Assembly: GCA_001828855.1 (NCBI GenBank)
Contig: MHZT01000024.1
Span: forward strand, 1-64,000
Direction: 5' to 3'
DNA from: Rhodobacterales bacterium RIFCSPHIGHO2_02_FULL_62_130
Lineage (GTDB): Bacteria; Pseudomonadota; Alphaproteobacteria; Rhodobacterales; Rhodobacteraceae
DNA: 64,000 nt
Made by a program: the position numbers and the translations under genes. The first letter of the stretch is position 1; every line of letters begins with the position of its first letter. Shown in pieces: positions 1,302-31,691 of the stretch. The notes under the pieces are model-generated. The model was not told the origin of the DNA and did no database searches. It worked only from the letters and a program-made list of their open reading frames with translations.

Positions 1302-2464
1302 CCCCGATCCTCCATTTTGGCCGACTTGAAGCCGGTCTCTTTTCGCCAGGTTGTAAGAGCATTCAGATCGTCAACTGAAGCGATCTCCTGAGCAGAAAGG
1401 GCCTCGCGATCCGTCGGATCGATGGGCCGACCGTCCACACGAACTTCATAGTGAAGGTTTGGTCCACTCACGAGCCCTGTAGCTCCGACTGCTCCGATCC
1501 TGCTCCCGGCTTTTACCCTTGTTCCCTGTTCCGCCGTGTCGGTGATTTCCGACAGATGCGCATATCGCGTCACGACGCCACCGCCATGATCAATATCAAC
1601 CGTCAAACCGTACCCGCGAATTGTCCCGGCAAAGATGATGCGGCCCGCCCCGGTTGCTGACACTTCGGTCCCTACAGGCGCTGCATAGTCTATACCGGTA
1701 TGCATCCGTACCCCGCCCAGCACAGGATGATTGCGCCTGCCAAAGACAGAGGAAAGACGCGCCCCAAGGATTGGCGCAGCGGAGCGTTGGACGGCTTCTC
1801 CATCCTCAAAAACGATGACTGGCCCTGCAGCGTCAGACGCTACAAGTTCGAGAACGCGATCTGTCAGTTCCAGCCGCGCATAGTTCAAGCGTGGCTCGCC
1901 CGCGATGCTTCCGTCGGGAAGTTGGTCCTCCCGCCAGACAAGAGCGAAGCTTTCACCACCTTTTATGTCGCGCCTGAAATCAACCTGGCCCGCGAGAAGC
2001 GCTGTCAGGTCAACGGCGAACCTTTCGGGCGCGTTGGCTGCGACAAGCGCCTCATACAGGGGACCCTGCAGGGTCAAAGTCTCCCGTCTGTCGACTTCCC
2101 GGATCGGGGGATCAAGCCTCTCGGCTGTGATCGGTCCGTTGAACGACAAGTTGATCTCGACCCCATCATCAACAAACAGCGACAGTCGCAAGAGTCTCGT
2201 GGGGTCAATTTTTTCTGCAGCCCACTCCAGCCGATGTCCGGGGCGCAGTTCTGTCAGATCATAAACACCCGCAAGGGCCAATGCTGCCTCGGCCCTGACG
2301 TTTGGCGAAATGCTCGCTCTGCCAAGAACGCTGTCCAGAGTATCACCGGATGCGATCGTCGCCGTCGACTGCGAAAGAACATGTGACGTCGGTGGGTCCG
2401 CGAAGACCGGGACGGGTGCGGCAAGCCCGAAAGCAAGAAGCAAAAGCGTGGTGTGTCTGATCAT
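1298..2464 (-). CDS. M23-family peptidoglycan metallopeptidase
   Basis: 388 residues from the ATG at 2462-2464. The frame stays open farther upstream, but this start gives a clear signal peptide (MIRHTTLLLLAFGLAAPV, cleavage near A22) and avoids overlap with the SCO gene. The C-terminal LytM/M23 domain has the zinc ligands H255 and D259 (MHTGIDY) and H338 (LHYE), with H303 catalytic. The N-terminal half resembles the OapA/LysM-like part of envelope M23 proteins. It probably cuts peptidoglycan cross-links. Its place in an operon of copper chaperones is unusual and suggests envelope remodelling under metal stress. Confidence 0.88.
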   Translation of the reverse strand: MIRHTTLLLLAFGLAAPVPVFADPPTSHVLSQSTATIASGDTLDSVLGRASISPNVRAEAALALAGVYDLTELRPGHRLEWAAEKIDPTRLLRLSLFVDDGVEINLSFNGPITAERLDPPIREVDRRETLTLQGPLYEALVAANAPERFAVDLTALLAGQVDFRRDIKGGESFALVWREDQLPDGSIAGEPRLNYARLELTDRVLELVASDAAGPVIVFEDGEAVQRSAAPILGARLSSVFGRRNHPVLGGVRMHTGIDYAAPVGTEVSATGAGRIIFAGTIRGYGLTVDIDHGGGVVTRYAHLSEITDTAEQGTRVKAGSRIGAVGATGLVSGPNLHYEVRVDGRPIDPTDREALSAQEIASVDDLNALTTWRKETGFKSAKMEDRG

Positions 2465-2480
2465 CTGGCAGGATGGCCTT

Positions 2481-3083
2481 TCAACTGAGGGCACGGCGAA
2501 TTTTGGGCACGGCGAAGCGCCGGTCTTCGTGGAAGTCGATGATGCTGGCAAAGCGCCCGTCCGGGTAGAACAGGAAAACTCCAGCTGTATGGTCCATTGT
2601 GTAGTCGTCTCCATCACGCGGTACCTTGCGGTAGGACACACGAAAATCCTCAGCAGCCTGAGCAATTTGACTGGGAGTTCCGGTCAGACCAGCAATCCGC
2701 GGGTCGAAATTGGCGACATACTCGGCCAACACGTCCGGCGTATCGCGGTCGGGATCAACCGAGATGAGGGCGATGTTCAGCCGGTCGGCATCTGGCCCCA
2801 ACTCCTCCAGCCAGCCGGATATGTCACTTAGCGTGGTTGGGCAAACATCGGGACACCAGGTAAAGCCGAAGAACACCATTGTCGAGCGGCCGATCCAGTC
2901 AGCGGATCGAACGGCCCGTTTGCGGTGGTCGGTCAGTTGCCAACTCATTTCGCTCATCGACAGCGGCAGGTCCGCATTCAAGACCGGGCCATTGCTCGTG
3001 CGGTAGGCGCCAAGGCCCAACATGAAGGCCATGGCGCCGACTACGCTCCCAACCCCAAGAATTATTGTTCTGCGTCGGCGCAA
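2481..3083 (-). CDS. SCO1/SenC-family copper chaperone (copy 1)
   Basis: 200 residues with an N-terminal membrane anchor (about 7-26) and a thioredoxin-like SCO domain. The copper motif CPDVCP is present (C77, C81), and the distal histidine is in MDHTAG near residue 168. SCO proteins deliver copper to the CuA site of cytochrome oxidase or act as periplasmic thiol reductants. The start lies inside the 3' end of the PCuAC gene (22-bp overlap), so the two are translationally coupled. A second SCO paralogue lies two genes upstream. Confidence 0.92.
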   Translation of the reverse strand: MRRRRTIILGVGSVVGAMAFMLGLGAYRTSNGPVLNADLPLSMSEMSWQLTDHRKRAVRSADWIGRSTMVFFGFTWCPDVCPTTLSDISGWLEELGPDADRLNIALISVDPDRDTPDVLAEYVANFDPRIAGLTGTPSQIAQAAEDFRVSYRKVPRDGDDYTMDHTAGVFLFYPDGRFASIIDFHEDRRFAVPKIRRALS

Positions 3084-3535
3084 TCCGGACCCTCCGCACG
3101 CACGGAAAGCACTTCTACATTCACTGTCACCTCGCCTGCCTTCTCGAAAGACAACGTGACAGGAAAACTGTCACCCTCCTTCAGGGCCGCAGTCAGACCC
3201 ATGAGCATCCCGTGATAGCCACCCGGCGAAAGTTGGACGCTTTGGCCCGCCAGGACAGGGATCGACATGGCATGCGGCATCGACGCGACGCCATCCTTGA
3301 GCACAGTCTCGTGCAACATCGGCATCCCCGCTGCTGGCGTGGAAATGCCGACAAGAGCATCGTCGGTAGCGCCAGCATTGCTGATCGAGACATAGAAAAC
3401 GCCAGGACGGCCAGCGCCGATGGTGACCTTAGACCAGCCATGCTCGACGCTCAGATCACCGACTGTCACGGTTTCGCAGGCAAAGGCCGCTGATGCAGTC
3501 AACGACAGGGTCGCAGCAAGCAACAAGTGTTTCAT
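3062..3535 (-). CDS. PCuAC periplasmic copper(I) chaperone
   Basis: 157 residues with a signal peptide ending near A19. The family copper-binding signature H-x10-M-x21-H-x-M is complete: H75, M86, H108, M110. PCuAC hands Cu(I) to SCO proteins and cytochrome oxidase. Here it sits between two SCO genes, with 3 bp to the upstream one and an overlap with the downstream one, which matches the known PCuAC-SCO partnership. The C-terminus carries one extra Cys of unknown role. Confidence 0.92.
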   Translation of the reverse strand: MKHLLLAATLSLTASAAFACETVTVGDLSVEHGWSKVTIGAGRPGVFYVSISNAGATDDALVGISTPAAGMPMLHETVLKDGVASMPHAMSIPVLAGQSVQLSPGGYHGMLMGLTAALKEGDSFPVTLSFEKAGEVTVNVEVLSVRAEGPDCADAEQ

Positions 3536-3538
3536 GGG

Positions 3539-4132
3539 TCAAAACCTCGTCTGAAGGTCGGAAAGGATGTCGGCGGCCGGAGTGCCGTAGGTGAATTGGC
3601 GAAGCCATTCACCATCCGGACCAATCAGGAAAAGGCCGGGACTGTGCGCCATGGAATAGCCGTCAGGCGATGCAGCATCGTTCTCGCGTTCATAGAAAAT
3701 CTTGAAGCTGTCGGCCGCGGCTTTCGTCTCGGTCTCGGTCCCTGCCAGACCCAGGATCGCCGGATGAAAGGCTGCAGTGTAGGCCGCAAGGCCGAGCCGC
3801 CGGTCGCGTTCGGGGTCAATCGAGACGAAAAGCGGTTGAACTTTCTCGGCATCCGCCCCGAGATCGTCCATAACTTGGGCTACGTCAGAAAGCGTCGTAG
3901 GGCAGACATCGGGGCAGTTTGTGAAGCCGAAGAAGACGAGAAGGAATTTCCCGCGAAACTCTGCACTCGTCCTGATACGGCCTTCCTCATCCGCAAGTGT
4001 AAAGACTGGCGTGAAAGCCGGACTGGTTTCAGCAACACCCTCGCCTTGGATGGCCCACCTTGTTCCGGCAAAAATGATCATCGCCGCGATGGCGGCGACC
4101 CATAACCCAATTTGAAGGCGTCTAAGGCGCAT
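3539..4132 (-). CDS. SCO1/SenC-family copper chaperone (copy 2), first gene of operon
   Basis: 197 residues with one N-terminal membrane segment (about 8-24). The CPDVCP motif (C73, C77) and the later MAHSPG histidine complete the copper site. It is the first gene of a five-gene unit (SCO, PCuAC, SCO, M23, DUF411). The start codon is about 32 bp downstream of the -10 element of a MerR-type promoter (4164-4194), so expression is probably metal-induced. It is clearly diverged from copy 1, so this is not a recent duplication. Confidence 0.92.
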   Translation of the reverse strand: MRLRRLQIGLWVAAIAAMIIFAGTRWAIQGEGVAETSPAFTPVFTLADEEGRIRTSAEFRGKFLLVFFGFTNCPDVCPTTLSDVAQVMDDLGADAEKVQPLFVSIDPERDRRLGLAAYTAAFHPAILGLAGTETETKAAADSFKIFYERENDAASPDGYSMAHSPGLFLIGPDGEWLRQFTYGTPAADILSDLQTRF

Positions 4133-4163: not shown

Positions 4164-4194
4164 GGTCTAGAACCTTGAGCAGCTAGAGGTTCAA
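4164..4194 (-). promoter_or_regulatory. MerR-family operator/promoter of the SCO-PCuAC operon (box A)
   Basis: On the minus strand, TTGAAC (-35, 4189-4194) and TAGACC (-10, 4164-4169) are separated by 19 bp, the stretched spacing typical of MerR-activated promoters. Inside lies the dyad AACCTctAGC..., imperfect in its middle but with perfect AACCT/AGGTT ends (4171-4191). The core resembles the boxes at 6006 and 14923 and known CadR/PbrR operators. The likely regulator is the MerR protein at 14965. Confidence 0.8.
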
Positions 4195-4239
4195 GCGACA
4201 TTGGTGTGAGTTTTTTGACGACCGGCGATGTTTCGCCGA

Positions 4240-4413
4240 TCAGTGCGCCCCAAGAAACCGCCCCAAGGCGATCCCTAGGAAGATACCGAAAAGACCAAAT
4301 GCGATGGCGAAACCGGCCCCATGCTGCAGCCGGTCCATCCGTTTGCCTCCACGCTGTCGCGCGAGAAGATCGCCCCACACAAATCCGATGCCCCCAAATA
4401 GCAGTCCGATCAT
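4240..4413 (-). CDS. Small two-pass membrane protein of unknown function
   Basis: 57 residues from the ATG at 4411-4413, which is preceded by AAGGA. The frame extends upstream into the lnt stop region, but that start has no ribosome site. There are two glycine-rich hydrophobic segments (about 3-15 and 34-54) separated by a basic loop (RQRGGKRMDR). It lies 29 bp downstream of lnt on the same strand, so it is likely in the same metal-induced transcript. I do not recognise the family. Confidence 0.6.
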   Translation of the reverse strand: MIGLLFGGIGFVWGDLLARQRGGKRMDRLQHGAGFAIAFGLFGIFLGIALGRFLGAH

Positions 4414-4442
4414 GGCGATTTCCTTGTCAAGAACGCTGAATT

Positions 4443-5993
4443 CTACAGTCGCGGTCGCAGTCTGATGGTAGCCCATGCAAGCAGGACCAGCGCCAGCGCG
4501 GTCCAGTCGCCGAAGCGAGCATAAGGGGTCGGCGAAAGCGGTCGTGGCAAGCGCGTGTCAATTATTCCTGCCGTTCCAAGCTCGAGCATAGCCACCGTCC
4601 GACCGTAGGCATCAACCACGGCGGATATTCCGGTGTTGGCGGCACGAACAAGCGGGAGACCTTCTTCGACCGCTCGCATTCGGGCTGAAGCCAGATGTTG
4701 CCATGGTCCGATCGAGGTGCCGAACCAGGCATCGTTGGTTGCGTTGAAGATCCAGTCCGGACGGATCGCGTCATCGGCGACATGGCCGGGAAAGATTGCC
4801 TCATAGCATATCGCCACTCCAACATAGGGGTGGGGCCCAATCGCCAGCGTGCGCGGTCCAGGGCCGGGCGCAAAATCACCCAGAGATTGAACCAACCGCT
4901 GAAACTGCAACACACTGCGCCAGGGAACATACTCGCCAAAGGGTACGAGGTGATGCTTGGCGTAACGTGTGAGGATTGTGCCGTCCGGAGCGATAGCGAG
5001 GACGGAATTGCGGTAGACCATTCCCGCCCCGGTTTTTTCCCGCTCCGGGCTGCCGGTGAGCAAGACACCAGTTTCGGACAACAGCCACCCCAACATGACC
5101 CGTGCGCCAGGATCCTCTGCAAGGAACCCAGGCCAGGCGGTTTCGGGCCAAAGCAGAAGATCGAACGACCCTGAGCGGGCCGACAGGGAAAAAAGCCGCA
5201 GGATGTTCGCTTTTCGGGAAGTTTCATCCCATTTGGCATTTTGTGCGATGTTTGGCTGCACGACCCGAACCTGCGTGCCACGGTCCGAAGCCGGGCCTGA
5301 GGTGGCAAGCCGTACCACTCCAAAGCCCGCAACGCTGACCAAAATCGCGGCCGCACCAGTCAGGCGAAGAACCCGCAGATGGCGGTCAGCACGACCGAAG
5401 GCGAGACCAGCAAGTGACGCACACAGCACGAGGAGAAATCCAAGCCCGTAGCTGCCGACCACCGAAGCTGCTTGGGACAGAACGGTCCAGTCAGCCAGCG
5501 TGTAGGCTGCAAGATTCCACGGAAACCCGGTGACGACATGTCCTCGCAGCCACTCAGACGCCGCCCAGGCCGTGGCCAGCGACAGTGCCGGAGGCAGGCC
5601 GGACCGCGCCATGCGCGCCGCAACGACACATGCCAATGCTGGAAACGCTGATAGCAGCCCGGCGAGGCCGAAAACAGCAGGCAGGGCGAGCCATCCGAAC
5701 CGGTCTGCCTCGACCTGAAAGCTTTCAGTGATCCAGAACAGGCCAAGCACAAACTGTCCCAAGCCGAACATATATCCAAGCCCGAACGCCCTAAGCGACG
5801 ATGCGCCACGCAACACCAGTGCAAGCGCCACGAAGGCAACCAGCGCGAGCGGCAAAATCGAATACGGCGGCAGGGCGAGGACAAGGCACGCGCCTGCCGC
5901 TACGACGATCCCCAGTCTGGCCAGACTTCGCAGGTGCGTCCTGCCGGAAAACGGATGTCCATCCGAAATTATCAATTCTGTCAGATCCTCCAA
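4443..5993 (-). CDS. lnt: Apolipoprotein N-acyltransferase
   Basis: A 516-residue polytopic inner-membrane protein followed by a periplasmic nitrilase-like domain. The catalytic triad is visible: E284 (WPETAWPG), K346 (AKHHLVPFGEY) and C396 (GVAICYEAIFP). It adds the third acyl chain to lipoproteins. The frame opens with TTG at 5991-5993, only about 7 bases after the predicted transcription start. A second TTG at 5973-5975, 11 bases after GGAGG, is an equally good start. Lnt is normally a chromosomal housekeeping enzyme. Here it is controlled by a MerR-type box and sits among metal genes, so it is probably an extra, metal-induced copy. Confidence 0.92.
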   Translation of the reverse strand: MEDLTELIISDGHPFSGRTHLRSLARLGIVVAAGACLVLALPPYSILPLALVAFVALALVLRGASSLRAFGLGYMFGLGQFVLGLFWITESFQVEADRFGWLALPAVFGLAGLLSAFPALACVVAARMARSGLPPALSLATAWAASEWLRGHVVTGFPWNLAAYTLADWTVLSQAASVVGSYGLGFLLVLCASLAGLAFGRADRHLRVLRLTGAAAILVSVAGFGVVRLATSGPASDRGTQVRVVQPNIAQNAKWDETSRKANILRLFSLSARSGSFDLLLWPETAWPGFLAEDPGARVMLGWLLSETGVLLTGSPEREKTGAGMVYRNSVLAIAPDGTILTRYAKHHLVPFGEYVPWRSVLQFQRLVQSLGDFAPGPGPRTLAIGPHPYVGVAICYEAIFPGHVADDAIRPDWIFNATNDAWFGTSIGPWQHLASARMRAVEEGLPLVRAANTGISAVVDAYGRTVAMLELGTAGIIDTRLPRPLSPTPYARFGDWTALALVLLAWATIRLRPRL

Positions 5994-6005
5994 ATTGCAG
6001 AGTGA

Positions 6006-6036
6006 CGCCTAACTGCTCTAGCAACTAGAGGTGCAA
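6006..6036 (-). promoter_or_regulatory. MerR-family operator/promoter of lnt (box B)
   Basis: On the minus strand, TTGCAC (6031-6036) and TAGGCG (6006-6011) are 19 bp apart. The spacer holds the perfect 15-bp dyad CTCTAGCAACTAGAG (6016-6030). This is very close to published PbrR/CadR operators. The rest of the 5994-6247 gap between lnt and the L,D-transpeptidase shows nothing else I can name. Confidence 0.82.
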
Positions 6037-6247
6037 CATATCCTTCAGCAGATCACGGCATTGTCAGAATGGCGCGGCAAGTCGCGCTATTTTTCAATAG
6101 CTGAAGTGTTGCGGTGAAAACCGTTACGCGAGGCCAAAAGTCACATAGACTTGACTGGACAACCGGGCCGCTTTGCCAGCCGCTAATATAACGATACGTA
6201 CGCAATCGAAGGATTTGCGCTGCGATAATTTGAAGAAAGCGAAGCCA

Positions 6248-6913
6248 ATGTTCACACGACGCCATTTAATTGCAACGACAGCCGCGCTGTTTTCGGCACC
6301 GATTGCTGCCCCGGTGCTCGCCGCGTCGCATCTGCAAGACCAGTGGGCGGCCTGGGATGCGGAGGTTACTCCGCCGGGCTATGACGCTGCAACGACCAAT
6401 CCATGGGGGTTGCACCCGCGCCTGCTGCCGACCCGCGTCGAAGCGCGAGCGGGGCTTGTGGCTGGTGATATCCATGTCGACGCGATCGCGAGGTATCTCT
6501 ACCACATTCAGGCTGATGGAACGGCCATGCGCTACGGCGTCGCCATCGGCCGTGATGGTCTGTACGAGCCCGGAACTTACACGATCCGCCGCAAGGCGAA
6601 ATGGCCAAGCTGGACGCCGACCCCCGCCATGATTGAACGTGAGCCGGAAATCTACGCGAAATATGTCGATGGCATGGCCCCCGGTCCGGCAAATGCCTTG
6701 GGTTCCCGCGCGCTCTATCTCTTTGTCGGTGAGCGCGACACCTATCTGCGAATCCACGGCTCACCGCTGCCGGGTTCAATCGGAAGCCGCGCGAGTTCGG
6801 GCTGTGTGCGCATGGTCATGCCACATATCAACGACCTGTTCGATCAGGTCGAGGTTGGCGTAACGGCGCATCTCTACCCCGCCGAAGAAGGGAATGTGGC
6901 GACGACCCTGTGA
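6248..6913 (+). CDS. L,D-transpeptidase (YkuD domain), exported
   Basis: 221 residues from the ATG at 6248, chosen because it begins a twin-arginine-like signal sequence (FTRRHL, then a hydrophobic stretch ending at AASH). The C-terminal half carries the YkuD signature H-G-S-x-L-P-G-S-I-G-x-R-x-S-S-G-C-V-R-M (about 174-193), including the catalytic cysteine and histidine. It would form 3-3 cross-links in peptidoglycan or attach proteins to it. It is divergent from lnt and close to a secreted M23 peptidase, another envelope enzyme. Confidence 0.9.
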   Translation: MFTRRHLIATTAALFSAPIAAPVLAASHLQDQWAAWDAEVTPPGYDAATTNPWGLHPRLLPTRVEARAGLVAGDIHVDAIARYLYHIQADGTAMRYGVAIGRDGLYEPGTYTIRRKAKWPSWTPTPAMIEREPEIYAKYVDGMAPGPANALGSRALYLFVGERDTYLRIHGSPLPGSIGSRASSGCVRMVMPHINDLFDQVEVGVTAHLYPAEEGNVATTL

Positions 6914-6962
6914 CGGACACCGCCCATTTGCGCGCTTGTGGCTGCCAGCGGGACTTTTTGGA

Positions 6963-7286
6963 TCAGCCCACCGAGGCAGTGTTGGCTGCAGCGTCGGTGC
7001 AAATCGGCCTGCCCCTAACCGATCGCAGCGGCAACATCGTCGTCTCAACCGGCCCGACATGGCGGTACCAATAGCAGCCGTCTTCGGGTTTCAGGATCAC
7101 TTCTTGCAGGTTCTGATACGGTGCCGCAATCAGGGCGACCCCTTCCGGCAGCTCCTTGAGAAACCCAGTCGTCTTGTCAGTTGCCTGATTGATCGGGACA
7201 GTGCAGGCCCCAAGTGCCAGAAACCCAATCGCAAGACAAATCGGCCGCAACCGTTTCAAAGCCACGGGCGGGGCTCGGTTTATCAT
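6963..7286 (-). CDS. Putative outer-membrane lipoprotein
   Basis: 107 residues from the ATG at 7284-7286, which follows a GAGGA site. The frame is open farther upstream, but only this start places a lipobox correctly: the hydrophobic run CLAIGFLALGAC ends in LGAC at about residue 27. The mature part is short with no domain I recognise. It lies downstream of the ZIP transporter gene on the same strand with a 123-bp gap and may share its transcript. Confidence 0.65.
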   Translation of the reverse strand: MINRAPPVALKRLRPICLAIGFLALGACTVPINQATDKTTGFLKELPEGVALIAAPYQNLQEVILKPEDGCYWYRHVGPVETTMLPLRSVRGRPICTDAAANTASVG

Positions 7287-7409
7287 CGCGACGTCCTCGG
7301 CTGTGATCGCTGACCTGTTAATACTGCTCGGCCGCATAGGATATCCTTGTTTCTTGTTCTGTCGCGTTCCCGATCCGGTCCGTGCGACTTTGGCCAAAAC
7401 CTGCGGAGA

Positions 7410-8591
7410 TTATACCTTGATCAGCGCCGCTGTGACATACATGAACGCGACGCCGCCAAGAAAGCCGCCAAGAACAGCAGGCGAGAACAGCACGGCCGGC
7501 CGGTCAGGGTTCTGGCGCATCAGGTAGGCGGTGACTTCGACAATCACCTGCAGGATCGCCCCGGCCCCGACGGCGAGCGCCAGTGCTGACCATTGCGGGG
7601 CGTAGGCGAGGCTGCCCGCCCACATGCCCAGTACAGCCGGGCCGCCAGCCAAAAGCGTCAGCGCAGCAAAGGTCCAAAGTGGTGGCCGGACACGCAGCAT
7701 CGGTGCAGCAATACCGATCCCTTCGGTCACATTGTGCAGTGCAAATCCGAGGACGAGGAAGGTACCAAGCCCCGCCGATCCGGCGGCGAAAGCCCCACCG
7801 ATGGCCAGCCCTTCTCCGAAATTGTGCAACCCGATTCCGAGCGCGATGTAGAACGCCAGCGCCAGCCCCTCGGGTTGACCGCGCCAGCGACCGATGGCCA
7901 TCAGCAGCAAGAAACTCGCCAGCGCCGCCAGCCAGACCATCGCCGATCCCTGGAACAGGGCAGCCGCGTCCGCCGACAATTCCAGCGCCTCGCCTGTCAT
8001 GTCAATCAGCAGGAAGGCCAGCAGACCCACCGTCAACGCCAGAAGGACGTTCATGCCCTGCCGACCCAAGCCGCGCATCGCAGGATAGAACATCAACCCA
8101 AGTGCCACCGGCAGCAAGCCGACAATCGCGCCCACCAGCGCCTGCAGGCGCAACTGTCCGGCGCTGACCTTGGGTGTCGGCACAGCCACGGGAATTTCGT
8201 GTTCGAACACTGTGCCGGTATTGGTGACCATGGCGACGCGATGTGCCTCGCCCAGAACCCAAGGATAGGGCATGCGCAGCCAGACGGTATCGCCGCGCGC
8301 GACAGGCCCGGCAGGGTCTTGCGTGAAGGACCAGTAAGCGTCATCCACCGCGACCTGCGCGATGACCATTGCTTCTGACCCACCAGCCCGCACCAGAAGC
8401 TGGATGCCGGTTTCGTCGAGGATGGTGCGCTCAATCGTCAGCGCCTCGACCGGCGGAGCGCCATTGTTGAAGCTGCGCAGGGGATCGAGCGAGGCGATCC
8501 AGACAAAGGAAGCCAACATCGCCGCCAGCGGCAGCAACACCAGCAGAAGCCGGATGAGGGGGGACCGGGCGGATTGGCTCTGGTCGCTCAT
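7410..8591 (-). CDS. ZIP-family metal transporter with periplasmic N-terminal domain
   Basis: 393 residues. One N-terminal membrane segment (12-31) leads to a soluble domain of about 110 residues, followed by at least seven further membrane segments. The ZIP metal-site motifs HNFGEGLAIG and HNVTEGIGIA are clear, in the paired histidine/glutamate arrangement of transmembrane helices 4 and 5. ZIP proteins import divalent metals such as zinc, manganese or iron. The start overlaps the stop of the upstream multicopper oxidase (ATGA), so the two are coupled. The MntR-like regulator opposite suggests manganese or iron, which is inference. Confidence 0.85.
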   Translation of the reverse strand: MSDQSQSARSPLIRLLLVLLPLAAMLASFVWIASLDPLRSFNNGAPPVEALTIERTILDETGIQLLVRAGGSEAMVIAQVAVDDAYWSFTQDPAGPVARGDTVWLRMPYPWVLGEAHRVAMVTNTGTVFEHEIPVAVPTPKVSAGQLRLQALVGAIVGLLPVALGLMFYPAMRGLGRQGMNVLLALTVGLLAFLLIDMTGEALELSADAAALFQGSAMVWLAALASFLLLMAIGRWRGQPEGLALAFYIALGIGLHNFGEGLAIGGAFAAGSAGLGTFLVLGFALHNVTEGIGIAAPMLRVRPPLWTFAALTLLAGGPAVLGMWAGSLAYAPQWSALALAVGAGAILQVIVEVTAYLMRQNPDRPAVLFSPAVLGGFLGGVAFMYVTAALIKV

Positions 8592-9733
8592 GCTGCTGGC
8601 CCCCGTACGTCGAACATGCCGACCCAGCCCAGTTCGGTGAATTCGGACTGATGGGCATGGAACATGTACATGCCATCTTCATGGTCGGCGAAACTGAACT
8701 CGAGGATGCCGCGCTGCGCCTGACACTGCATGATGAGATCGACGGTGCGCTGCGTGGGCCTCAGGGTGGTGCCAGTATCGTAGTAGTCGAAGAAATTGGC
8801 GTGCAGATGGAACGAGTTGATCGGGTCGAACTCGGTGACGTTCAGAAGGTAGATGCGCACCGGGCGCGATTTGTCGATGCGGATCGGGACGTTCATGTAG
8901 GCTTGGCCCACGGTGTTGCAGGCGTAGACCTCGTTGCCGCCATCGAAATTGGTGTCGAAGGCGTTCATCACCATCGCCATTTCCTGCCAGTTGGCATTTT
9001 CGGGGCTGCCCAGCAGTCGCGAAGCGGCGACGGCGGTCAGGGCTGGGTCAGATTGCCGTGCGGGATCAGGGTCGATCACGAACAGCCCGTACATGCCCTT
9101 GTGCATATGCCGCTTCAGCGGCAGGGCGTGGCAGTGGTAGAGGTGGCAACCGAACGGTTTGGCGTCGAACTCGTAAATGAATTCCTCACCTGGGCCGATC
9201 AGGCCCGCACCGGGAACCCCGTCCATCCGCGCCGAATGGATGCCGTGGAAATGCATCGAATGCGGGTGCGAACCAAAGTTCCGGAAGATGATCCGCAGTC
9301 GCTCGCCCTCCTTGGCACGGAGCGCAGGTCCGGGAACGCGACCATTGAAGGTCCAGGCGGGAAAGAAGATGCCGGGGGCAATCTCGATTTCCTTGTCGAT
9401 GGCATCGACATCGAAGGTACGCAGGGTGCGCCCGTCGGGCAAAAGCTCGGTCGTGCCGGTGTCCCAGTCGGTCAGCATCGGCGTCGGGTCAAAGCCGTTC
9501 CGGGCGTGATCGACCTGACCAACCGTGGTCATGTTGCCGTGTGCCATGCCGGACATCGGTGTCGCATAGGGATCGGCAGCCATGGCGGACATGTCGTGAC
9601 CGGCCATGGGATCGGGGGCAGACTGCGACCGCGCACCGCTCGCCAGCACCGCAGCGCCGCCGGCGGCAGTAAGGCCTCCGATCAGCAATGCGCGGCGCGC
9701 GGGATCGACAGATTGCTGTTTTTCGTCAGGCAC
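8588..9733 (-). CDS. Multicopper oxidase, short form with Met/His-rich N-terminus
   Basis: 381 residues. A twin-arginine-like signal (RRALLIGG) is followed by a Met/His-rich linker (about 43-68: GHDMSAM..., GMAHGNM). Two cupredoxin domains carry the four copper motifs HFHG, HLYHCHALPLKRHMHKGM, FHLHANF and FHAHQ. The order and the YHCH motif resemble two-domain oxidases or nitrite-reductase-like proteins rather than three-domain CueO. It begins a unit with the ZIP transporter and is divergent from the mntR-like gene across a 161-bp region with a dyad. Substrate unknown; Mn(II), Fe(II) or Cu(I) are all possible. Confidence 0.88.
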   Translation of the reverse strand: MPDEKQQSVDPARRALLIGGLTAAGGAAVLASGARSQSAPDPMAGHDMSAMAADPYATPMSGMAHGNMTTVGQVDHARNGFDPTPMLTDWDTGTTELLPDGRTLRTFDVDAIDKEIEIAPGIFFPAWTFNGRVPGPALRAKEGERLRIIFRNFGSHPHSMHFHGIHSARMDGVPGAGLIGPGEEFIYEFDAKPFGCHLYHCHALPLKRHMHKGMYGLFVIDPDPARQSDPALTAVAASRLLGSPENANWQEMAMVMNAFDTNFDGGNEVYACNTVGQAYMNVPIRIDKSRPVRIYLLNVTEFDPINSFHLHANFFDYYDTGTTLRPTQRTVDLIMQCQAQRGILEFSFADHEDGMYMFHAHQSEFTELGWVGMFDVRGPAA

Positions 9734-9827
9734 TGAGGATCCTCATTTCGGATTGCGCATGGTCTGGAAGGGCAGTTGTCTCTATTTCGGCAATCCCGCT
9801 CGCCATGAACAAGTCTGAGCAAATAAA

Positions 9828-9843
9828 GTTAGGCTTGGCTAAC
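9828..9843. promoter_or_regulatory. Candidate MntR-like operator between oxidase and mntR genes
   Basis: A 16-bp near-perfect inverted repeat, GTTAGGCTTGGCTAAC, lies in the divergent region about 95 bp from the oxidase start and 52 bp from the mntR-like start. It has the TTAG...CTAA half-sites seen in operators of DtxR/MntR-family repressors. Only the innermost base pairs mismatch. Function is inferred from position and form. Confidence 0.55.
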
Positions 9844-9894
9844 ATTCTGCTCTTTGCCTTTGCCTGTCAACAAGGTTCATGCAAGACTGGGTTG

Positions 9895-10353
9895 ATGATG
9901 CAGGATAACCACCTTGAGAGCATGCCCGCCGAACCCGATCCCCGCCCGCACGATGCCCGGGCCGAGGCGTTTCAGGGTGTGCGCGAAGCGCGGCGCAGCG
10001 AATTGGCTGAAGACTATGTCGAACTGATTGCCGAGCTTATTCATGCGAATGGCGAGGCGCGACCAGTCGATATAGCGACAAAGATGGGCGTCAAAGCCCC
10101 GACTGTTGCCAAGACGCTGGATCGTCTGGCTAGAGACGGTCTGATCACCCGCGCGAAGTATCGCTCAGTCTTCCTTACGGAAGAGGGCAGGGCGCTAGCG
10201 GGGGAGTGCCGCCGCCGCCACGAGATCGTGCTGCGCTTCCTGATCAGCCTTGGCCTGGACCCCGAAACAGCTGAACGCGATGCCGAGGGGATCGAGCATC
10301 ACGTCAGCGCTCGCACGCTGGCCGTCTTCGCAGCTTTCTCCGACCGATCCTAG
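9895..10353 (+). CDS. mntR: MntR/DtxR-family metal-dependent transcriptional regulator
   Basis: 152 residues from the ATG at 9895 (a second ATG follows directly). The body closely follows Escherichia coli MntR: FQGVREARRSELAEDYVELIAELI, then the winged helix VDIATKMGVKAPTVAKTLDRLARDGLI, then the RRHEIVLRFL and DAEGIEHHVS metal-site helices with conserved H and E ligands. It binds Mn(II), or possibly Fe(II), and represses metal-uptake genes. It is divergent from the oxidase-ZIP unit and ends 10 bp from the convergent dsbA-like gene. Control of its neighbours is inferred. Confidence 0.88.
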   Translation: MMQDNHLESMPAEPDPRPHDARAEAFQGVREARRSELAEDYVELIAELIHANGEARPVDIATKMGVKAPTVAKTLDRLARDGLITRAKYRSVFLTEEGRALAGECRRRHEIVLRFLISLGLDPETAERDAEGIEHHVSARTLAVFAAFSDRS

Positions 10354-10363
10354 GTCTGTCGGA

Positions 10364-11023
10364 TCATGGGCTCTCGACGGCAAGCTTCACGTCGGCAATC
10401 AGGCTTTCGGCACTGACGTTCTCTAGCCGCTTGCCGTTAAGGAAGAACGTCGGGGTTTGCCGGATGCCAAGCGCCTCGACATCTGCCGCGTCCTGATTGA
10501 GGACGCCGGTGATGCCGGGGAAAAGCCGTTCGGTTTCGGATTTCTTGAGATCCAGGCCGACAGCGCCAGCCACCCGCCAGGCCACATCCATTTGCGGGCC
10601 ATCATGCAGGGCCCAAGTGGGCTGTTTTTCGAGAATGGCGTCCAGCACCTGCTCGAACTTGTCCTGCATCCGGGCGACCTCAAGAATGCGCACCGCCTCG
10701 TCCGATCCCTGGTGGAACACGGTATAGCGCATCACGACCCGCACCTGGGTCGGGAACTGGCGGCGGATTTCCTGCACGACGGGGTGAAACGCGCGGCACG
10801 CCTCGCAAGAGGGGTCGAAGAATTCGACCAGCGTGACAGGCGCGTCCGCGGGGCCAAGAACGGGCGAATGCGGGCGGATTAGCAGGTTAGTTTCAGCAGC
10901 GGGCGTCGCTGCGGCTGCGGCCTCTGCCTCGGCAGTGCGGCGCTGGTTCAGCACGTAAGCGCCGCCGGCAAAGGCCGCAATGCCAAGGGCGGAGACCCCG
11001 AGAAGAAGAGTGCGGCGGTTCAA
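10364..11023 (-). CDS. DsbA-family thiol:disulfide oxidoreductase
   Basis: 219 residues, anchored by an N-terminal hydrophobic segment (5-24) and an Ala-rich linker. The thioredoxin fold carries the redox motif CEAC (C73, C76) and a late cis-Pro (RQTPTFF). DsbA-like proteins introduce or shuffle disulfides in the periplasm. It is the last gene of the ATPase-lspA-dsbB unit and overlaps dsbB by ATGA, so the pair likely works as oxidant and re-oxidase. The motif also resembles ScsC/DsbG-type proteins of copper resistance. Confidence 0.88.
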   Translation of the reverse strand: MNRRTLLLGVSALGIAAFAGGAYVLNQRRTAEAEAAAAATPAAETNLLIRPHSPVLGPADAPVTLVEFFDPSCEACRAFHPVVQEIRRQFPTQVRVVMRYTVFHQGSDEAVRILEVARMQDKFEQVLDAILEKQPTWALHDGPQMDVAWRVAGAVGLDLKKSETERLFPGITGVLNQDAADVEALGIRQTPTFFLNGKRLENVSAESLIADVKLAVESP

Positions 11024-11457
11024 GTTTTTGGTCCTTTCGTAACGGCAAGGCAGGCAGAGATCGCGGCAAAGGCGACCAGTGAAAGATAGGGAATCGGCAG
11101 CCCTAGGATCATCTGCGCCTCACCGGTGCAGGATGGGCCATCCTTGGTGCAGGGAACGATGGGCGCGGGCAATATTCCGGCATAAAGACCCGAATGCCAG
11201 GTGGCGATCGCCAGACCGGCCAGTGCCAGCGGCAACCCATAGGCTCTGGCCGCCCCGTCGCCGCGCCAGAGCGACACTCCGAGGACCGGCACCAGCGGGA
11301 ACATGGCGATCCGCTGATACCAGCACAGCGTGCAAGGCATCTGGCCCAGCACCTCGCCGATGAACAGGGCACCAAGCGTAGCGGCTAGGGCTAACAGGAA
11401 CGCGCCGGTAAGGGCATACTCTTCGCCTGAAAGGGTTGGATTGGTCCGCTCAGTCAA
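11020..11457 (-). CDS. dsbB: DsbB-like disulfide bond formation membrane protein
   Basis: 145 residues starting at TTG (11455-11457). This start is chosen because AAAGGAG lies 7 bases upstream and it overlaps the lspA stop by 8 bp; the open frame reaches 11598 but inside lspA. There are four membrane segments and two cysteine pairs: PCTLC in the first periplasmic loop, and the cysteines of VPCTKDGPSC in the second. DsbB re-oxidises DsbA with quinone, and dsbA is the next gene. Confidence 0.88.
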   Translation of the reverse strand: MTERTNPTLSGEEYALTGAFLLALAATLGALFIGEVLGQMPCTLCWYQRIAMFPLVPVLGVSLWRGDGAARAYGLPLALAGLAIATWHSGLYAGILPAPIVPCTKDGPSCTGEAQMILGLPIPYLSLVAFAAISACLAVTKGPKT

Positions 11458-11923
11458 CCGTGGTCTCCTTTTGTCGTCTGGTCGGAATGGCCGCGCAAAG
11501 GATGCACAGCGCGCCCGCAGTGATTGCGATGTCCGCTCCGTTGAAGGCTGGCCAGTGCCAGTCCTGCCAGTAAAGATCGAGGAAATCGGTGACGGCACCT
11601 TGCCGCAGACGGTCGATCAGGTTGCCGGTTGCCCCGCCCACAATCATGGCAAGGCCTGCGCTTTCCAGCGGGGATTTCGTGCGCAGGGCCATGATGGCGA
11701 AGACGAGGGTCAGCGCGCCGGTAAGCGCCGCCATCAGCAGCGGCCGTCCGGACATCACGCCCGACAGCATTCCGAAACTCGCGCCCTCATTGAAGCCGAG
11801 GGTCAGATTGAAGCCCGGCAGGACGGCAACGGGTGCTCCAGGGGCAAGCCACACAAGCGCCATTGCCTTGGACGACTGATCCACGAACACGCAGGCACCG
11901 GCCAGCAGCAACAGGTGCTTCAT
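11450..11923 (-). CDS. lspA: Lipoprotein signal peptidase II (PbrC-like context)
   Basis: 157 residues with four membrane segments. Conserved aspartate motifs are NLIDRLRQGAVTDF and FNGADIAI, which supply the catalytic pair. LspA cleaves prolipoprotein signal peptides. It lies in a unit with a Zn/Cd/Pb ATPase and near a PbrR-like regulator, the arrangement known from lead-resistance operons where the lsp-like gene is called pbrC. Its start overlaps the stop of the upstream membrane methyltransferase-like gene. Confidence 0.9.
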   Translation of the reverse strand: MKHLLLLAGACVFVDQSSKAMALVWLAPGAPVAVLPGFNLTLGFNEGASFGMLSGVMSGRPLLMAALTGALTLVFAIMALRTKSPLESAGLAMIVGGATGNLIDRLRQGAVTDFLDLYWQDWHWPAFNGADIAITAGALCILCAAIPTRRQKETTVD

Positions 11924-12543
11924 GTCTTGCTCCTATTCGGGAGGCCAATCCAACGCGGCACAGTGCCCGCATAGGTGTCGTAACCCGAACCAAGGCTGCC
12001 GCGCAGGGCAGTCTCTTCTGACTGAATCTGTGTGGACGCCGACCACAGGAACAGAATTGGTGCCAAGGCTGTCGGGATGGCTGGAAGCGCGAGTGCGACG
12101 CCCGTCAGCAGCACGAGCTGGCCCAGAAACGTCGGGTTGCGGCTGAAGCGGTAGAGCCCGCCGGAAACCAACTCGCCCGTCTCGCCCGGAATGACGCCGA
12201 CCCGCCAGGAACGGCCCATCGACATCTGCGCGGCGAAGGCGATCATTGCACCGATGCTTGCCAGAAGAATGCCGATAACGCCAAGCAGCAGTCCTTTCCC
12301 CTCAGTCCAGAGCGGGTCCGCCTTGTGCAGCATCGGCCAGACGAGCCAGAGAAGCGGCCCGAAGAACGCCAGTGCGAATGCCGCGCGAAACCCGATGGCC
12401 GCGAGGCGGTCCCGCCCCGTGGCGCGTCCGAACAGCCAGATCGGCTTGCCGGCAGCCTCTGCCGCCTGCGCGCTGCCCCAGAAGAACAGCCCAAGATAAC
12501 CCACAAGGATGGCCAAGGCGGCCCAGCCGAAGCCCGAAATCAT
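11920..12543 (-). CDS. Isoprenylcysteine carboxyl methyltransferase (ICMT)-like membrane protein
   Basis: 207 residues from the ATG at 12541-12543, 4 bp after the ATPase stop. Several membrane segments are followed by the family signature VSGGLYRFSRNPTFLGQLV and the late glutamate/arginine region EETALRGSLGSGYDTY. Bacterial members of this phospholipid-methyltransferase/ICMT superfamily occur with metal ATPases but mostly lack a proven substrate. Coupling to lspA by ATGA overlap suggests work on lipids or lipoproteins, which is inference. Confidence 0.8.
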   Translation of the reverse strand: MISGFGWAALAILVGYLGLFFWGSAQAAEAAGKPIWLFGRATGRDRLAAIGFRAAFALAFFGPLLWLVWPMLHKADPLWTEGKGLLLGVIGILLASIGAMIAFAAQMSMGRSWRVGVIPGETGELVSGGLYRFSRNPTFLGQLVLLTGVALALPAIPTALAPILFLWSASTQIQSEETALRGSLGSGYDTYAGTVPRWIGLPNRSKT

Positions 12544-12547
12544 CGGC

Positions 12548-14875
12548 TCAGCCCTCGCGTTCCGGATTAAACCGCAGCAACCGTAGCGCGTTGAGCGTAA
12601 CGAGTACTGTGGCCCCGGTATCAGCAAGGATGGCGATCCAGAGGCCGGTCAACCCCAGAACCGACGTCACCAGGAATACCGCTTTCAGTCCAAGTGCGAT
12701 GGTCACGTTCTGGCGGATGTTGGCCATCGCCGCACGGGCTAGCCGGATCGAGGCCGCAACATCCGTCACCCGGTCGCGCAGGATGGCGGCATCCGCCGTT
12801 TCCAGCGCCACATCGGTGCCCGATCCCATCGCCACGCCGACGGAGGCCTGTTTCAGCGCAGGTGCGTCGTTGATGCCGTCGCCGATCATCATCACGCCGC
12901 CCGCCTCGGCCATTTTGCGGATGGCGTTCAGCTTGTCTTCGGGCATCATGTCGGCTTGGAATTCCATGCCCAGACTGCCGGCAATGGCCGCCGCCGTGCG
13001 CGGGTTATCCCCGGTAAGGATGACTGAGGACACCCCCATGGCCTTCAACTGCCGCACCGCGTATGGTGCGTCTTTGCGGGGCTCGTCGCGCATGGCGATC
13101 AGGCCGAGTGGGACCTTCTCGCGAAACACCGCCACGGCCGTCTTGCCGTCCTCTTCGAAGATCGTCGCTTGCCGCAGACCCAGCCCGTCAAGTCCGCCGT
13201 TGTCCATCGCAAAGCGGGGCGAGGCGACCCAGGCGGGCGCGTCGCCGACCGTGGCCACAACGCCATTTCCCATCAACGCCTTTGCGTCCTTCGACGGCAG
13301 CGCGGCAATACCCGCCGCCTTGGCACGTGCGAGAATGGCGATGGCCAGAGGATGGCTCGATCCGGTCTCGACCCCCGCCGCCACGGCCAAAACTTCGGCT
13401 TCGGTCGCTTCGCCAAAGGTCACGACATCGGTCACCACCGGGCGGCCATGGGTCAGCGTGCCAGTCTTGTCAAAGGCGACGCGGTTCACCTTGGCAGCTG
13501 CCTCGATCACTGCACCACCTTTCATCAGCAAGCCGCGCCGCGCTCCGGTGGACAGCGCCGAAGCGATGGAAGCGGGCACCGAGATGACCAGCGCGCAGGG
13601 GCAGCCGATCAGCAGCAGGGCAAGGCCCCGGTAAACCCAAGTGTCCCAGGGCTGGCCAAAGGCGAGGGGCGGCACAAGAATCACCAGCGCCGCGACCGCG
13701 ACGATGGCGGGCATGTACCAACGGCTGAAGCGGTCGATGAAACGTTCGGTCGGCGCGCGTGCCTCCTCGGCCTCTTCGACCAGACGAATGATACGAGAGA
13801 TTGTGTTGTCCTCGGCGGCCTTGGTGACTTTCACCTGCAAGACGGCCTCGGTGTTGATCGACCCGGCAAAGACGTTCTCGCCCGGCCCACGGTTCTTCGG
13901 GATGCTTTCGCCGGTCACCGGGCTTTCGTCGATGCCAGAGGTGCCTTCGGTGATCTCGCCATCCGCCGGGATGCGGTCCCCGGGGCGGACCATGACGATC
14001 TGGCCGACGGTCAGGCTTTCAGCGGGCACCTCGCGGGTGGTGTTGCCCGTAACCAGTTGCGCGGTCTTGGGCACCAGATTGGCCAGCGCCCGGATACCGT
14101 CGCGCGCCTTGCCGGCAGCGACACCTTCCAGCACCTCGCCCACGGCGAACAGGAACACCACGATCGCCGCTTCCGCAGCGGCGTCGATGAACAAAGCACC
14201 AATCGCGGCCACGGTCATCAGGCTTTCGATTGTAAAGGGCTGACCCATCCGCAGCGCCGCAAAAGCACGCTTCGCCACCGGGGCCACACCGATCAAGCAG
14301 GCAGCAATGAAGGGCCACTTGCCGATCTCGGGCGCGAGATATTCGATGATCCAGGCCGCACCCAGCAGAATTGCGGTGAAGATGACCAACTTGCCCTTGC
14401 TGGTCAGATACCAAGGCTTTCCCCGGTCGGCGGGGTCGTCATGCACATGGCCGGGGCTGCCGTGGCCGCTGTCGTCATGGCCGGCTGATTTCGCAGACCC
14501 CACGCCAGCGGTGCTGCTAACACTGGCGCTGGCAGTCTTGGGGCCGTGGTCGTGGCCATCGGCCTCGTCGTGGGCGTCTTCCGGCACCTCGCTTGGCAGC
14601 ACGAAATCCTTCTTCGCCCCGGCCTTGCGCGGCGCGATCTCATAGCCAAGCGCTCGCACCGTGCCTTCGATCTTGTCGTGTGACGCGCCGCCCTCGGCCA
14701 GCGTCAGCTTTAGCCGCTCGGACATGATTGCCACGTTGACGCCGCTGACGCCCGGCAGGCGCCCGACTGCATTCTTGATCTTGGTCGCGCAGGACGCGCA
14801 ATCCATTCCGGTCACGGTCCATTCGACCGTGGCGGCACCTGTGGCGCCTGCAGTAGGTGTTTTTTTGTCAGACAT
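12548..14875 (-). CDS. zntA: P1B-2 type Zn(II)/Cd(II)/Pb(II)-exporting ATPase
   Basis: 775 residues. Order: N-terminal HMA domain with MDCASC (C26, C29); a His/Asp-rich linker (about 100-146); the membrane core with CPC at 425-427; the phosphorylation motif DKTGT (D469); GDGINDAP; and a last helix containing ADTGATVLVTLNALRLL. The lysine in ALGLK and the aspartate in ADTG mark the Zn/Cd/Pb subclass rather than copper. The start follows GGGGGAG and lies 48 bp below the -10 of a MerR-type promoter. It heads a unit with the ICMT-like gene, lspA, dsbB and dsbA. Cadmium or lead may be the main substrate. Confidence 0.93.
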   Translation of the reverse strand: MSDKKTPTAGATGAATVEWTVTGMDCASCATKIKNAVGRLPGVSGVNVAIMSERLKLTLAEGGASHDKIEGTVRALGYEIAPRKAGAKKDFVLPSEVPEDAHDEADGHDHGPKTASASVSSTAGVGSAKSAGHDDSGHGSPGHVHDDPADRGKPWYLTSKGKLVIFTAILLGAAWIIEYLAPEIGKWPFIAACLIGVAPVAKRAFAALRMGQPFTIESLMTVAAIGALFIDAAAEAAIVVFLFAVGEVLEGVAAGKARDGIRALANLVPKTAQLVTGNTTREVPAESLTVGQIVMVRPGDRIPADGEITEGTSGIDESPVTGESIPKNRGPGENVFAGSINTEAVLQVKVTKAAEDNTISRIIRLVEEAEEARAPTERFIDRFSRWYMPAIVAVAALVILVPPLAFGQPWDTWVYRGLALLLIGCPCALVISVPASIASALSTGARRGLLMKGGAVIEAAAKVNRVAFDKTGTLTHGRPVVTDVVTFGEATEAEVLAVAAGVETGSSHPLAIAILARAKAAGIAALPSKDAKALMGNGVVATVGDAPAWVASPRFAMDNGGLDGLGLRQATIFEEDGKTAVAVFREKVPLGLIAMRDEPRKDAPYAVRQLKAMGVSSVILTGDNPRTAAAIAGSLGMEFQADMMPEDKLNAIRKMAEAGGVMMIGDGINDAPALKQASVGVAMGSGTDVALETADAAILRDRVTDVAASIRLARAAMANIRQNVTIALGLKAVFLVTSVLGLTGLWIAILADTGATVLVTLNALRLLRFNPEREG

Positions 14876-14922
14876 GATTGCTCCCCCGCCCGAACCGGGG
14901 CAGTTGCCATTATTGATTCGGG

Positions 14923-14953
14923 AACATAAAGTCTCTAGCAGCTATAGCTTCAA
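14923..14953 (-). promoter_or_regulatory. MerR-family operator/promoter of the zntA operon (box C)
   Basis: On the minus strand, TTGAAG (14948-14953) and TATGTT (14923-14928) are 19 bp apart and flank the dyad CTATAGCTGCTAGAG. It lies in the 89-bp gap between zntA and the divergent MerR gene, the classical arrangement. The sequence matches boxes A and B and is very similar to known PbrR/CadR sites. Confidence 0.88.
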
Positions 14954-14964: not shown

Positions 14965-15402
14965 GTGCTGACCATCGGAAAACTGGGAGATGCGGCCGGC
15001 GTCAAGGTGCCAACGATCCGCTATTATGAGCAGATCGGCCTCTTGCCAGAGCCGGACCGGAGTTCCGGCAACCAAAGACTCTATGCCCGACGCACACTGG
15101 ATCGGCTGAGTTTCATACGTCACGCCCGCGAGTTGGGCTTTCCGCTGGAGGCGATCCGTGACCTCCTCAGTCTGCAAGACAGCCCCGATCAGCCCTGCGC
15201 GGCAGCCGATACCATCGCAAAAGCCCAACTTCTGGCCGTTCGTGCCCGGCTTGCAAGGCTGAAGGCGCTCGAGACAGAACTAGAGCGGATGATAGTGCAA
15301 TGCGCCCACGGCACGATTGCGGATTGCCGGGTAATCGAGGTTCTGGGCGACCATGCCAACTGTGCTCACGACCACCACGGCGGGCAGGAAGCGGCGTTGT
15401 AA
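14965..15402 (+). CDS. MerR-family regulator, CadR/PbrR type
   Basis: 145 residues. The N-terminal MerR helix-turn-helix (TIGKLGDAAGVKVPTIRYYE) and dimer helix are followed by metal-site cysteines C78, C113 and C121. This three-cysteine pattern is that of CadR/PbrR/ZntR proteins and unlike CueR, which has two C-terminal cysteines and a serine at the first site. The tail ANCAHDHHGG is His-rich as in CadR. Divergent from zntA across box C, it probably activates zntA and also the SCO and lnt units. Confidence 0.9.
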   Translation: MLTIGKLGDAAGVKVPTIRYYEQIGLLPEPDRSSGNQRLYARRTLDRLSFIRHARELGFPLEAIRDLLSLQDSPDQPCAAADTIAKAQLLAVRARLARLKALETELERMIVQCAHGTIADCRVIEVLGDHANCAHDHHGGQEAAL

Positions 15403-21362: not shown

Positions 21363-21390
21363 GGAATCCTCCAGTTTGATGGCTTGCTTC

Positions 21391-21421: not shown

Positions 21422-21443
21422 GATAAATTTTTAAGGTGGCGTG

Positions 21444-31689: not shown

Positions 31690-31691
31690 TC

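Follow-up and report, generated by a model that had tools for sequence, protein, structure and literature searches.

MerR-family regulators hold promoters with an over-long spacer, and metal binding distorts the DNA so that the -35 and -10 elements are aligned (PMC3431237, PMC9909328; published systems are described throughout from excerpts of the papers cited). Among the described systems closest to the one analysed here, the pbr operon of Cupriavidus metallidurans (PbrR, PbrA, PbrB, PbrC) has, besides a MerR-family regulator and a promoter with a 19-bp spacer, a P-type ATPase for metal efflux and, as PbrC, a signal-peptidase gene (PMC3431237, PMC1526738), and in the cadR-cadA divergon of Pseudomonas putida the regulator, with ligands of the Cys77/112/119 type, is divergent from the ATPase (PMC9909328). 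The copper regulons of CueR/HmrR also use MerR promoters with 19-bp spacers, and their targets include copper chaperones and multicopper oxidases (PMC1526738). Two further systems connect metals with lipoproteins: in Listeria, copper-resistance operons carry lit2, a mobile lipoprotein-modifying enzyme that copper induces (PMC7387801), and in Escherichia coli, where NlpE-Cpx and cutE (lnt) link metal stress to lipoprotein acylation, copper impairs that acylation and Lnt was originally identified as cutE, a locus of copper sensitivity (PMC6538781). Here we analyse a stretch of 64,000 nucleotides from Rhodobacterales bacterium RIFCSPHIGHO2_02_FULL_62_130 (positions 1 to 64,000 of contig MHZT01000024.1, called C24 below, which has 80,078 bp in a genome of 4.97 Mb), hereafter the window. 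In it the gene of a MerR-family regulator, merR1, diverges from the operon of a metal-efflux ATPase, zntA, and similar boxes of operator type precede zntA, the apolipoprotein N-acyltransferase gene lnt and the SCO-family gene sco1.

We think it probable (about 0.8) that one CadR/PbrR-like sensor acts on the similar 19-bp-spacer promoters of these three units and that metal switches all of them on together. The window shares with pbr a MerR-type regulator, a metal-efflux ATPase and an LspA-type gene. A preliminary description of this DNA had held the gene mix to be wider than that of the known pbr and cad operons; this holds for Lnt, SCO, PCuAC and DsbA/B, which, like CcdA and YkuD, the excerpts on pbr do not mention, but not for the LspA-type gene, already present there as PbrC. 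The window regulator also scores under the CadR-PbrR model cut-off. The cad regulon as described concerns the transporter (PMC9909328), whereas in the window this box type stands at the head of envelope operons; MerR1, unlike CueR/HmrR, has Cys rather than Ser at its selectivity position, and the boxes are not of the ACCTTCC...GGAAGGT type. The other systems differ in that lit2 is an intramolecular transacylase of a Gram-positive host (PMC7387801) and NlpE-Cpx is two-component envelope-stress sensing, not a cytosolic metal sensor over lnt (PMC6538781). Among the open-licence papers listed by our searches, none describes in its title or the beginning of its abstract a regulon of the MerR type in which Lnt, DsbA/B or SCO stand beside a Zn/Cd/Pb ATPase. 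The over-long-spacer mechanism and the ATPase-LspA pairing are already known, and the widening to envelope thiol and lipoprotein biogenesis would be the new part.

The three 31-bp boxes of the preliminary description were all found in their places, on the minus strand and with a 19-bp spacer. Box C (14923-14953, TTGAAG-N19-TATGTT), the predicted MerR-type operator/promoter of the zntA operon, ends 47 bp before the zntA start at 14875. Box B (6006-6036, TTGCAC-N19-TAGGCG), the predicted operator/promoter of lnt, ends 30 bp before the lnt start, probably the TTG at 5975, since a second lnt copy in the genome, on contig C38, begins at the equivalent position. Box A (4164-4194, TTGAAC-N19-TAGACC), the predicted operator/promoter of the SCO-PCuAC operon, ends 31 bp before the sco1 start at 4132. 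We built a position weight matrix (PWM) from 59 distinct boxes facing zntA in the loci of relatives, with no window sequence included; the source loci were the best 80 of 528 confirmed loci encoding relatives of the regulator. This zntA-only PWM gives box C 48.2, box B 29.7 and box A 19.5 bits, and the single other site of at least 6 bits in the 64 kb, with 8.5 bits, overlaps box C itself. In a control of 5 Mb of first-order Markov sequence, one strand, no match reached 12 bits and one reached at least 10 bits.

A motif search over the genome and its relatives, a check of a kind that the preliminary description had proposed, shows boxes recurring before zntA, sco1 and lnt, with all eight strong sites of the host in two metal islands. 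The whole-genome scan used a sequence-only model from 46 boxes of relatives, without those of the window or C38, and scored 150 of 581 first-pass candidates. It gave eight sites with E<1e-4, namely A, B, C and five on C38; the next has E 0.39. The same five are recovered by the zntA-only PWM (53.2, 35.0, 22.2, 19.5 and 18.1 bits), which finds no site of at least 8 bits in four other fetched stretches of the genome. On C38 the boxes precede zntA, lnt, sco1, ccdA and a dsbA-like gene, in an island (47800-65000; L098, L099) whose merR1, zntA, lnt and sco1 are 77%, 83%, 77% and 95% identical to the window copies and which also holds icmt, lspA, dsbB, dsbA, an Nramp-like gene, ccdA, ykuD, pcuAC, sco2, M23, DUF411 and the dsbA-like gene (the Nramp, ccdA and dsbA-like labels were given by eye, with L082 as guide). 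The earlier statement that only one matching regulator is present is right for this box type within the window, but not for MerR genes as such, since a second one lies at 21441-21866; for the whole genome it fails, C38 carrying a second regulator of the same type (77% identical) together with its five boxes. Genes for Lnt, LspA and DsbB that pass the cut-off number three each in the genome: either island holds one, and the third lies outside both. The third lnt, on contig C3, is 38% identical to the window Lnt, and no box of at least 8 bits occurs in the 10-kb stretch around it. The C38 island adjoins conjugation-like and transposition-like genes, named by eye.

To locate the boxes in relatives, we scanned with the zntA-only PWM the 160 bp before each gene in 80 loci of relatives, three plasmid loci, the window and C38, taking genes of at least 50% identity whose match starts near the N-terminus and boxes of at least 12 bits; gene labels come from tblastn with the island proteins. 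Boxes precede sco1 in 22/26 loci and lnt in 10/10 (window and C38 included in both), none of which the model had seen, and zntA in 74/76, which are mostly training loci. No such box stands before icmt (0/43), dsbA (0/33), lspA (0/28), mntR (0/27), sco2 (0/23), pcuAC (0/18), mco (0/11), zip (0/11), cusB (0/10), hyp78 (0/8) or hyp144 (0/4), and boxes are rare before dsbB (1/32), DUF411 (1/20) and M23 (1/8). A wider scan found boxes before a small hyp78 open reading frame (ORF) followed by M23 in three loci excluded by the gene filter (L030, L043, L078). In one of them, from Paracoccus beibuensis (L030), the hyp78-M23 unit and the DUF411 gene each have a box (10588-10618 and 13731-13761).

Lnt relatives of at least 50% identity occur in at least 37 of 292 genomes of the order, four of which have partial copies only (G200, G291, G371, G372); the remaining Lnt copies among the matches listed are about 40% identical. 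Of the best 30 Lnt loci, six have a box before lnt (weak, 14.6 bits, in L193) and one copy (L195) is truncated, while in the other 23, about 55% identical, lspA stands immediately before lnt and no box is close by. We had considered these unboxed genes a contradiction; the idea was dropped, for further upstream they prove to sit inside a boxed gene run. This upstream reading covered 26 loci (L239-L264), made up of 22 of the 23 just named and four others, with gene order again from tblastn. In 26/26 of these sister loci a merR1 homologue (53-63%) faces one box of 16-29 bits, behind which sco1-dsbB-dsbA-pcuAC-sco2-M23-lspA-lnt run on one strand; DUF411 is present in 25/26, and a ykuD gene on the opposite strand interrupts the run in L250 and L264. 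The twenty-third locus, in G050 (L147), has the same gene order, and L147, L149, L182 and L184 have boxes of their own at the island ATPase and at ykuD. Since the regulator stands beside zntA in one lineage and beside the SCO-Dsb-LspA-Lnt run in the sister lineage, each would reach the other unit via a remote box. Among 20 lnt loci that are probably housekeeping, none has a box of at least 8 bits. The lnt gene itself is short or truncated in some loci: on Gemmobacter fulvus plasmid p5 (L081, 12044-12885) it is annotated short, beside an IS6 transposase, and it is truncated in L195 and G372; the sco1 box is kept in L081 and L195.

The likeness of the boxes might reflect nothing but recent inheritance of an island common to relatives, free of functional constraint, as the 95% identity of the C24 and C38 sco1 genes could suggest. 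We consider this very improbable. The sister islands are only 43-60% identical for sco1, dsbA, dsbB and lnt, yet they keep the box, and few boxes stand before genes internal to the islands. Besides, the sco1 boxes (18 distinct sequences) have a mean pairwise identity of 0.77, which drops to 0.41 over the 31 bp before them and 0.32 over the 20 bp after them, and that of the lnt boxes (8 distinct sequences) is 0.84 against 0.69 and 0.57 in the flanks, the box being well above the flank in 150/153 sco1 pairs and 27/28 lnt pairs, in a comparison that took only loci with a box of at least 12 bits, a choice that favours the box. Common control, as predicted from sequence comparison, gains further from natural gene fusions. 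In L018, zntA-icmt-sco1-pcuAC-sco2-lspA-dsbB-dsbA run in one direction behind a 34-bit box, and in L014 and L064 zntA-icmt is followed on its own strand by the sco genes, an order that suggests joint control of sco and zntA-icmt. The predicted regulon of the preliminary description, joining metal export with SCO/PCuAC, LspA/Lnt, DsbA/DsbB and M23, thus finds comparative support in a zntA-only model that predicts the sco1 and lnt boxes, in sco genes behind zntA-icmt and in all 26 sister loci.

A survey of 149 genomes of the family (boxes at E<=1e-3 with stricter filters, merR1 homologues at E<=1e-20) found at least one box in 53 and 101 sites in total, eight of them the host's; part of the surveyed genomes had also contributed training boxes (G121, G010 and G065, corresponding to L001, L017 and L009). 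With genes named by BLAST to island proteins or by motifs of our own, 39 sites have a P1B-type ATPase as their first downstream gene (in one case with just 30% identity), 20 a CDF-like exporter, 16 a SCO gene, 6 a transglutaminase-like gene, 4 ykuD, 2 lnt (both in the host), 2 a permease, one each ccdA, a dsbA-like gene, DUF411 and pcuAC, and 8 another gene. At 10/16 of the SCO sites the box is faced by a merR1 homologue. The boxed transglutaminase-like genes, so named by eye, are at G076:C19:69226, G043:C30:28139, G134:C10:408209, G112:C12:10467, G027:C25:128352 and G081:C23:278134. The regulon therefore looks larger than first claimed, with ccdA and the dsbA-like gene as putative members on C38 and YkuD and transglutaminase-like genes in relatives.

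The regulator gene merR1 (14965..15402, plus strand) encodes a CadR/PbrR-like protein with the Pfam domains MerR_1 and MerR-DNA-bind, which aligns to the CadR structure 6jgv and the PbrR691 structure 5gpe. Its Cys78, Cys113 and Cys121 align with Cys77, Cys112 and Cys119 of CadR; they are conserved in 85/85, 84/85 and 85/85 homologues, respectively, and all three in each of the 26 sister regulators. As in CadR/PbrR systems, the dyad lies within the 19-bp promoter spacer and the regulator is divergent from a metal-efflux ATPase. The Ser found at position 77 in CueR/HmrR, which have a two-cysteine Cu(I) site, is absent, this position being Cys in all 85 homologues and all 26 sister regulators, and Cys at the selectivity position is a mark of divalent sensors, Ser of Cu(I) sensors (PMC9909328). 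Even when 3 mismatches are allowed, the CueR pattern ACCTTCC-7-GGAAGGT does not match any of the boxes A-C. With a Cys at the selectivity position and no CueR operator at the boxes, a strict copper sensor is an unlikely description of MerR1. Relaxed selectivity has a precedent in the CadR-CopR cross-talk of Rubrivivax gelatinosus, where CadR, a MerR-family Cd sensor, affects copper-tolerance genes and binds both the copA and cadA promoters in vitro, although its targets are copA/copI and not lipoprotein or disulfide enzymes (PMC11591864). The tail of MerR1 carries H130-x2-C133-x3-H137 (DHxxCxxxH, residues 129-137), kept in 84, 84 and 81 of the 85 homologues and in 25/26 sister regulators, possibly a second metal site.

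Boxes A and/or B could instead be read by another MerR protein, so that the SCO and Lnt units would answer copper and zntA would answer Zn/Cd. SCO and PCuAC are indeed copper proteins, the sequence of box A is intermediate, and there are two candidates: a CueR-like (HmrR/CueR-like) protein on contig C7, named by eye, with Ser at the position of MerR1 Cys78, and the second MerR of the island at 21441. Against this, the CueR pattern misses A and B and has a 1-mismatch site on C7, near a P-type ATPase gene (2-mismatch sites hardly exceed the control, 19 vs 12), and the second MerR, which we rejected as a general regulator, has close orthologues (at least 74%) in 3/149 family genomes against boxes in 53, and a different palindrome upstream of its gene. 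As in all 26 sister loci the protein encoded opposite the sco1 box is homologous to MerR1 and has the same Cys triad, we regard control of A or B by another MerR protein as unlikely. Further 1-mismatch sites of the CueR pattern were seen, one on contig C31 and one on C51. The second MerR gene belongs to a divergon of its own (21045-21866), comprising a small Cys-rich membrane-like protein on the minus strand and the MerR gene (21441-21866) on the plus strand, with the palindrome at 21397-21419; the divergon is also present on C38, where the MerR is 91% identical.

Several observations weigh against the joint control of the three units by MerR1. The common core CT(C/A)TAG/CTAGAG proposed earlier holds for boxes B and C, both of which contain CT(C/A)TAG-N3-CTAGAG, but in box A the dyad reads CTCTAG-N3-CTCAAG, with an imperfect second half-site, and box A is the weakest of the three, its score a long way under that of C. 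Judged by eye, sco1 boxes and lnt boxes each follow a sub-consensus, a possible sign of lower affinity or of a different regulator. Four sco1 genes have no box of at least 12 bits directly upstream: those of L014 and L064, already mentioned, that of L079, where the sco genes follow a boxed dsbB-dsbA, and that of L013, where a degenerate 6.7-bit site remains. No ykuD gene of the ten island loci has a box (0/10), and boxed YkuD genes exist in several other genomes. The preliminary name 'CadR/PbrR-type' agrees with the Cys triad, the dyad in the 19-bp spacer and the divergence from the ATPase, but against the CadR-PbrR equivalog TIGR02047, its best NCBIfam model, MerR1 scores 108.4 bits, under the cut-off of 151.45, so we call it CadR/PbrR-like. 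ZntA passes the cut-off of the copper-ATPase subfamily TIGR01511 just barely (406 vs 397) in addition to that of the cadmium subfamily, so the assignment to Zn/Cd/Pb is tentative. A merR1 homologue is present in 53/53 genomes with a box (identity down to 37%) and in 69/149 overall (Fisher p 2e-26), a co-occurrence partly built in, as many boxes adjoin the regulator gene; more generally, the loci of relatives share ancestry, and their counts are not independent. Finally, accessory Lnt did not turn out to be a cysteine-poor, metal-hardened isoform, with a mean of 3.4 Cys (34 accessory copies, the partial copy of L195 dropped) against 2.3 in 21 housekeeping copies; being richer in cysteine, it more likely provides higher dosage.

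The fall in score from C (48 bits) to B (30) and A (19.5) would also suit a system in which only zntA is effectively regulated, A and B being low-affinity relics or sites bound without useful induction. Relics would hardly be expected to persist as A- and B-type sites do, near start codons in diverged relatives, with the 19-bp spacer kept and more alike than their flanks, or to recur both in the second island copy and in sister loci in which the regulator gene faces the sco1 box; we therefore hold effective regulation of zntA alone to be improbable, and keep the joint control of the three units as the favoured reading.

The genes of the three units all lie on the minus strand. That of ZntA (12548..14875) encodes a P1B-type ATPase for heavy-metal efflux that most resembles the Zn/Cd/Pb type: its best model, PRK11033 (Zn/Cd/Hg/Pb), gives 851 bits, under the cut-off of 1005, and it passes TIGR01525 (592 vs 346) and the cadmium subfamily TIGR01512 (536 vs 313.5). 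Next comes an icmt-like membrane methyltransferase (ORF 11920..12627, PEMT/ICMT Pfam), whose start is probably at about 12543 by comparison with L083 and whose place in the gene order matches relatives. The signal peptidase II gene lspA (11450..11923; TIGR00077, 91.7 bits vs cut-off 73.95) encodes a protein that aligns to solved LspA. It is followed by a dsbB-like disulfide oxidoreductase gene (ORF 11020..11598, true start downstream; Pfam DsbB 52.8 vs 22.1, NCBIfam PRK03113 84 bits, under 124) and, as last gene of the operon, by that of a dsbA-like thioredoxin-fold protein (10364..11023; Thioredoxin_4 and DSBA Pfam over cut-off). The accessory lnt gene, a cutE homologue (4443..5975; TIGR00546, 325 bits vs 132.9), encodes a protein that aligns with solved E. 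coli Lnt, including the regions of the Glu, Lys and Cys residues, which we take to be catalytic, and the C-Y/F-E motif is kept in 34/34 full-length accessory copies. A small ORF (4240..4476) overlaps the end of lnt and adjoins it in many relatives. In the third unit sco1 (3539..4132), the PCu(A)C copper chaperone gene (3062..3535) and sco2 (2481..3083), a second SCO-family gene, are without NCBIfam match and take their names from the annotation of Gemmobacter and Tabrizicola plasmids; the M23 metallopeptidase gene (ORF 1298..2665) has its true start at about 2464 by the p5 annotation, which also names it M23 (its matches to ShyA/MepM-type models are all below cut-off), and a DUF411 gene (825..1301, PF04214) ends the unit. 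Divergent from lnt on the plus strand is a gene for a YkuD L,D-transpeptidase (6173..6913, PF03734), without a box of its own in the window. Copper inhibits L,D-transpeptidases.

Elsewhere in the window (22849-25308, 29957-38734, 46760-57970 and 58777-63990), sequences resembling an arsenite oxidase large subunit, an SBF-family exporter, GAPDH with a neighbouring MFS-like ORF, VirB4/VirB6-type conjugation proteins, a multicopper oxidase and a second P-type ATPase were noted, some named by eye. From such genes, the replicon looks conjugative and multi-metal.

In the mechanism that we infer, MerR1 would sit on the predicted promoters of zntA-icmt-lspA-dsbB-dsbA, of lnt and of sco1-pcuAC-sco2-M23-DUF411, each multigene unit presumably being transcribed as an operon. 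A soft divalent metal, most likely Zn/Cd/Pb and possibly Cu at high load, would bind the site formed by C78', C113 and C121, and metal-bound MerR1 would then underwind the over-long spacers and turn on the three units at once. The ATPase would clear the metal from the cytosol, and the other products would restock envelope processes poisoned by thiol-binding metals: lipoprotein signal cleavage, N-acylation, disulfide formation, copper delivery and peptidoglycan remodelling. What the cargo would have in common is thiol chemistry outside the cytoplasm, together with the maturation of lipoproteins. We go further only tentatively, and at somewhat less than even odds, in proposing a horizontally mobile, metal-triggered replacement kit for the envelope, in which a cytosolic sensor of the Zn/Cd/Pb type would co-induce export and a second set of LspA, Lnt, DsbA, DsbB, CcdA, SCO, YkuD, transglutaminase-like and M23 proteins.

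The proposed regulon bears on why metal tolerance and lipoprotein maturation are linked. A metal sensor that controls genes for lipoprotein and disulfide enzymes and for copper chaperones through one operator type, carried by plasmids and by many genomes of the order, would make this link directly testable. It would also supply a regulator, with a precise operator, for genes that annotation usually leaves as scattered extra copies. If the proposal of a replacement kit is true, outer-membrane and disulfide biogenesis would continue while soft metals poison the housekeeping set.

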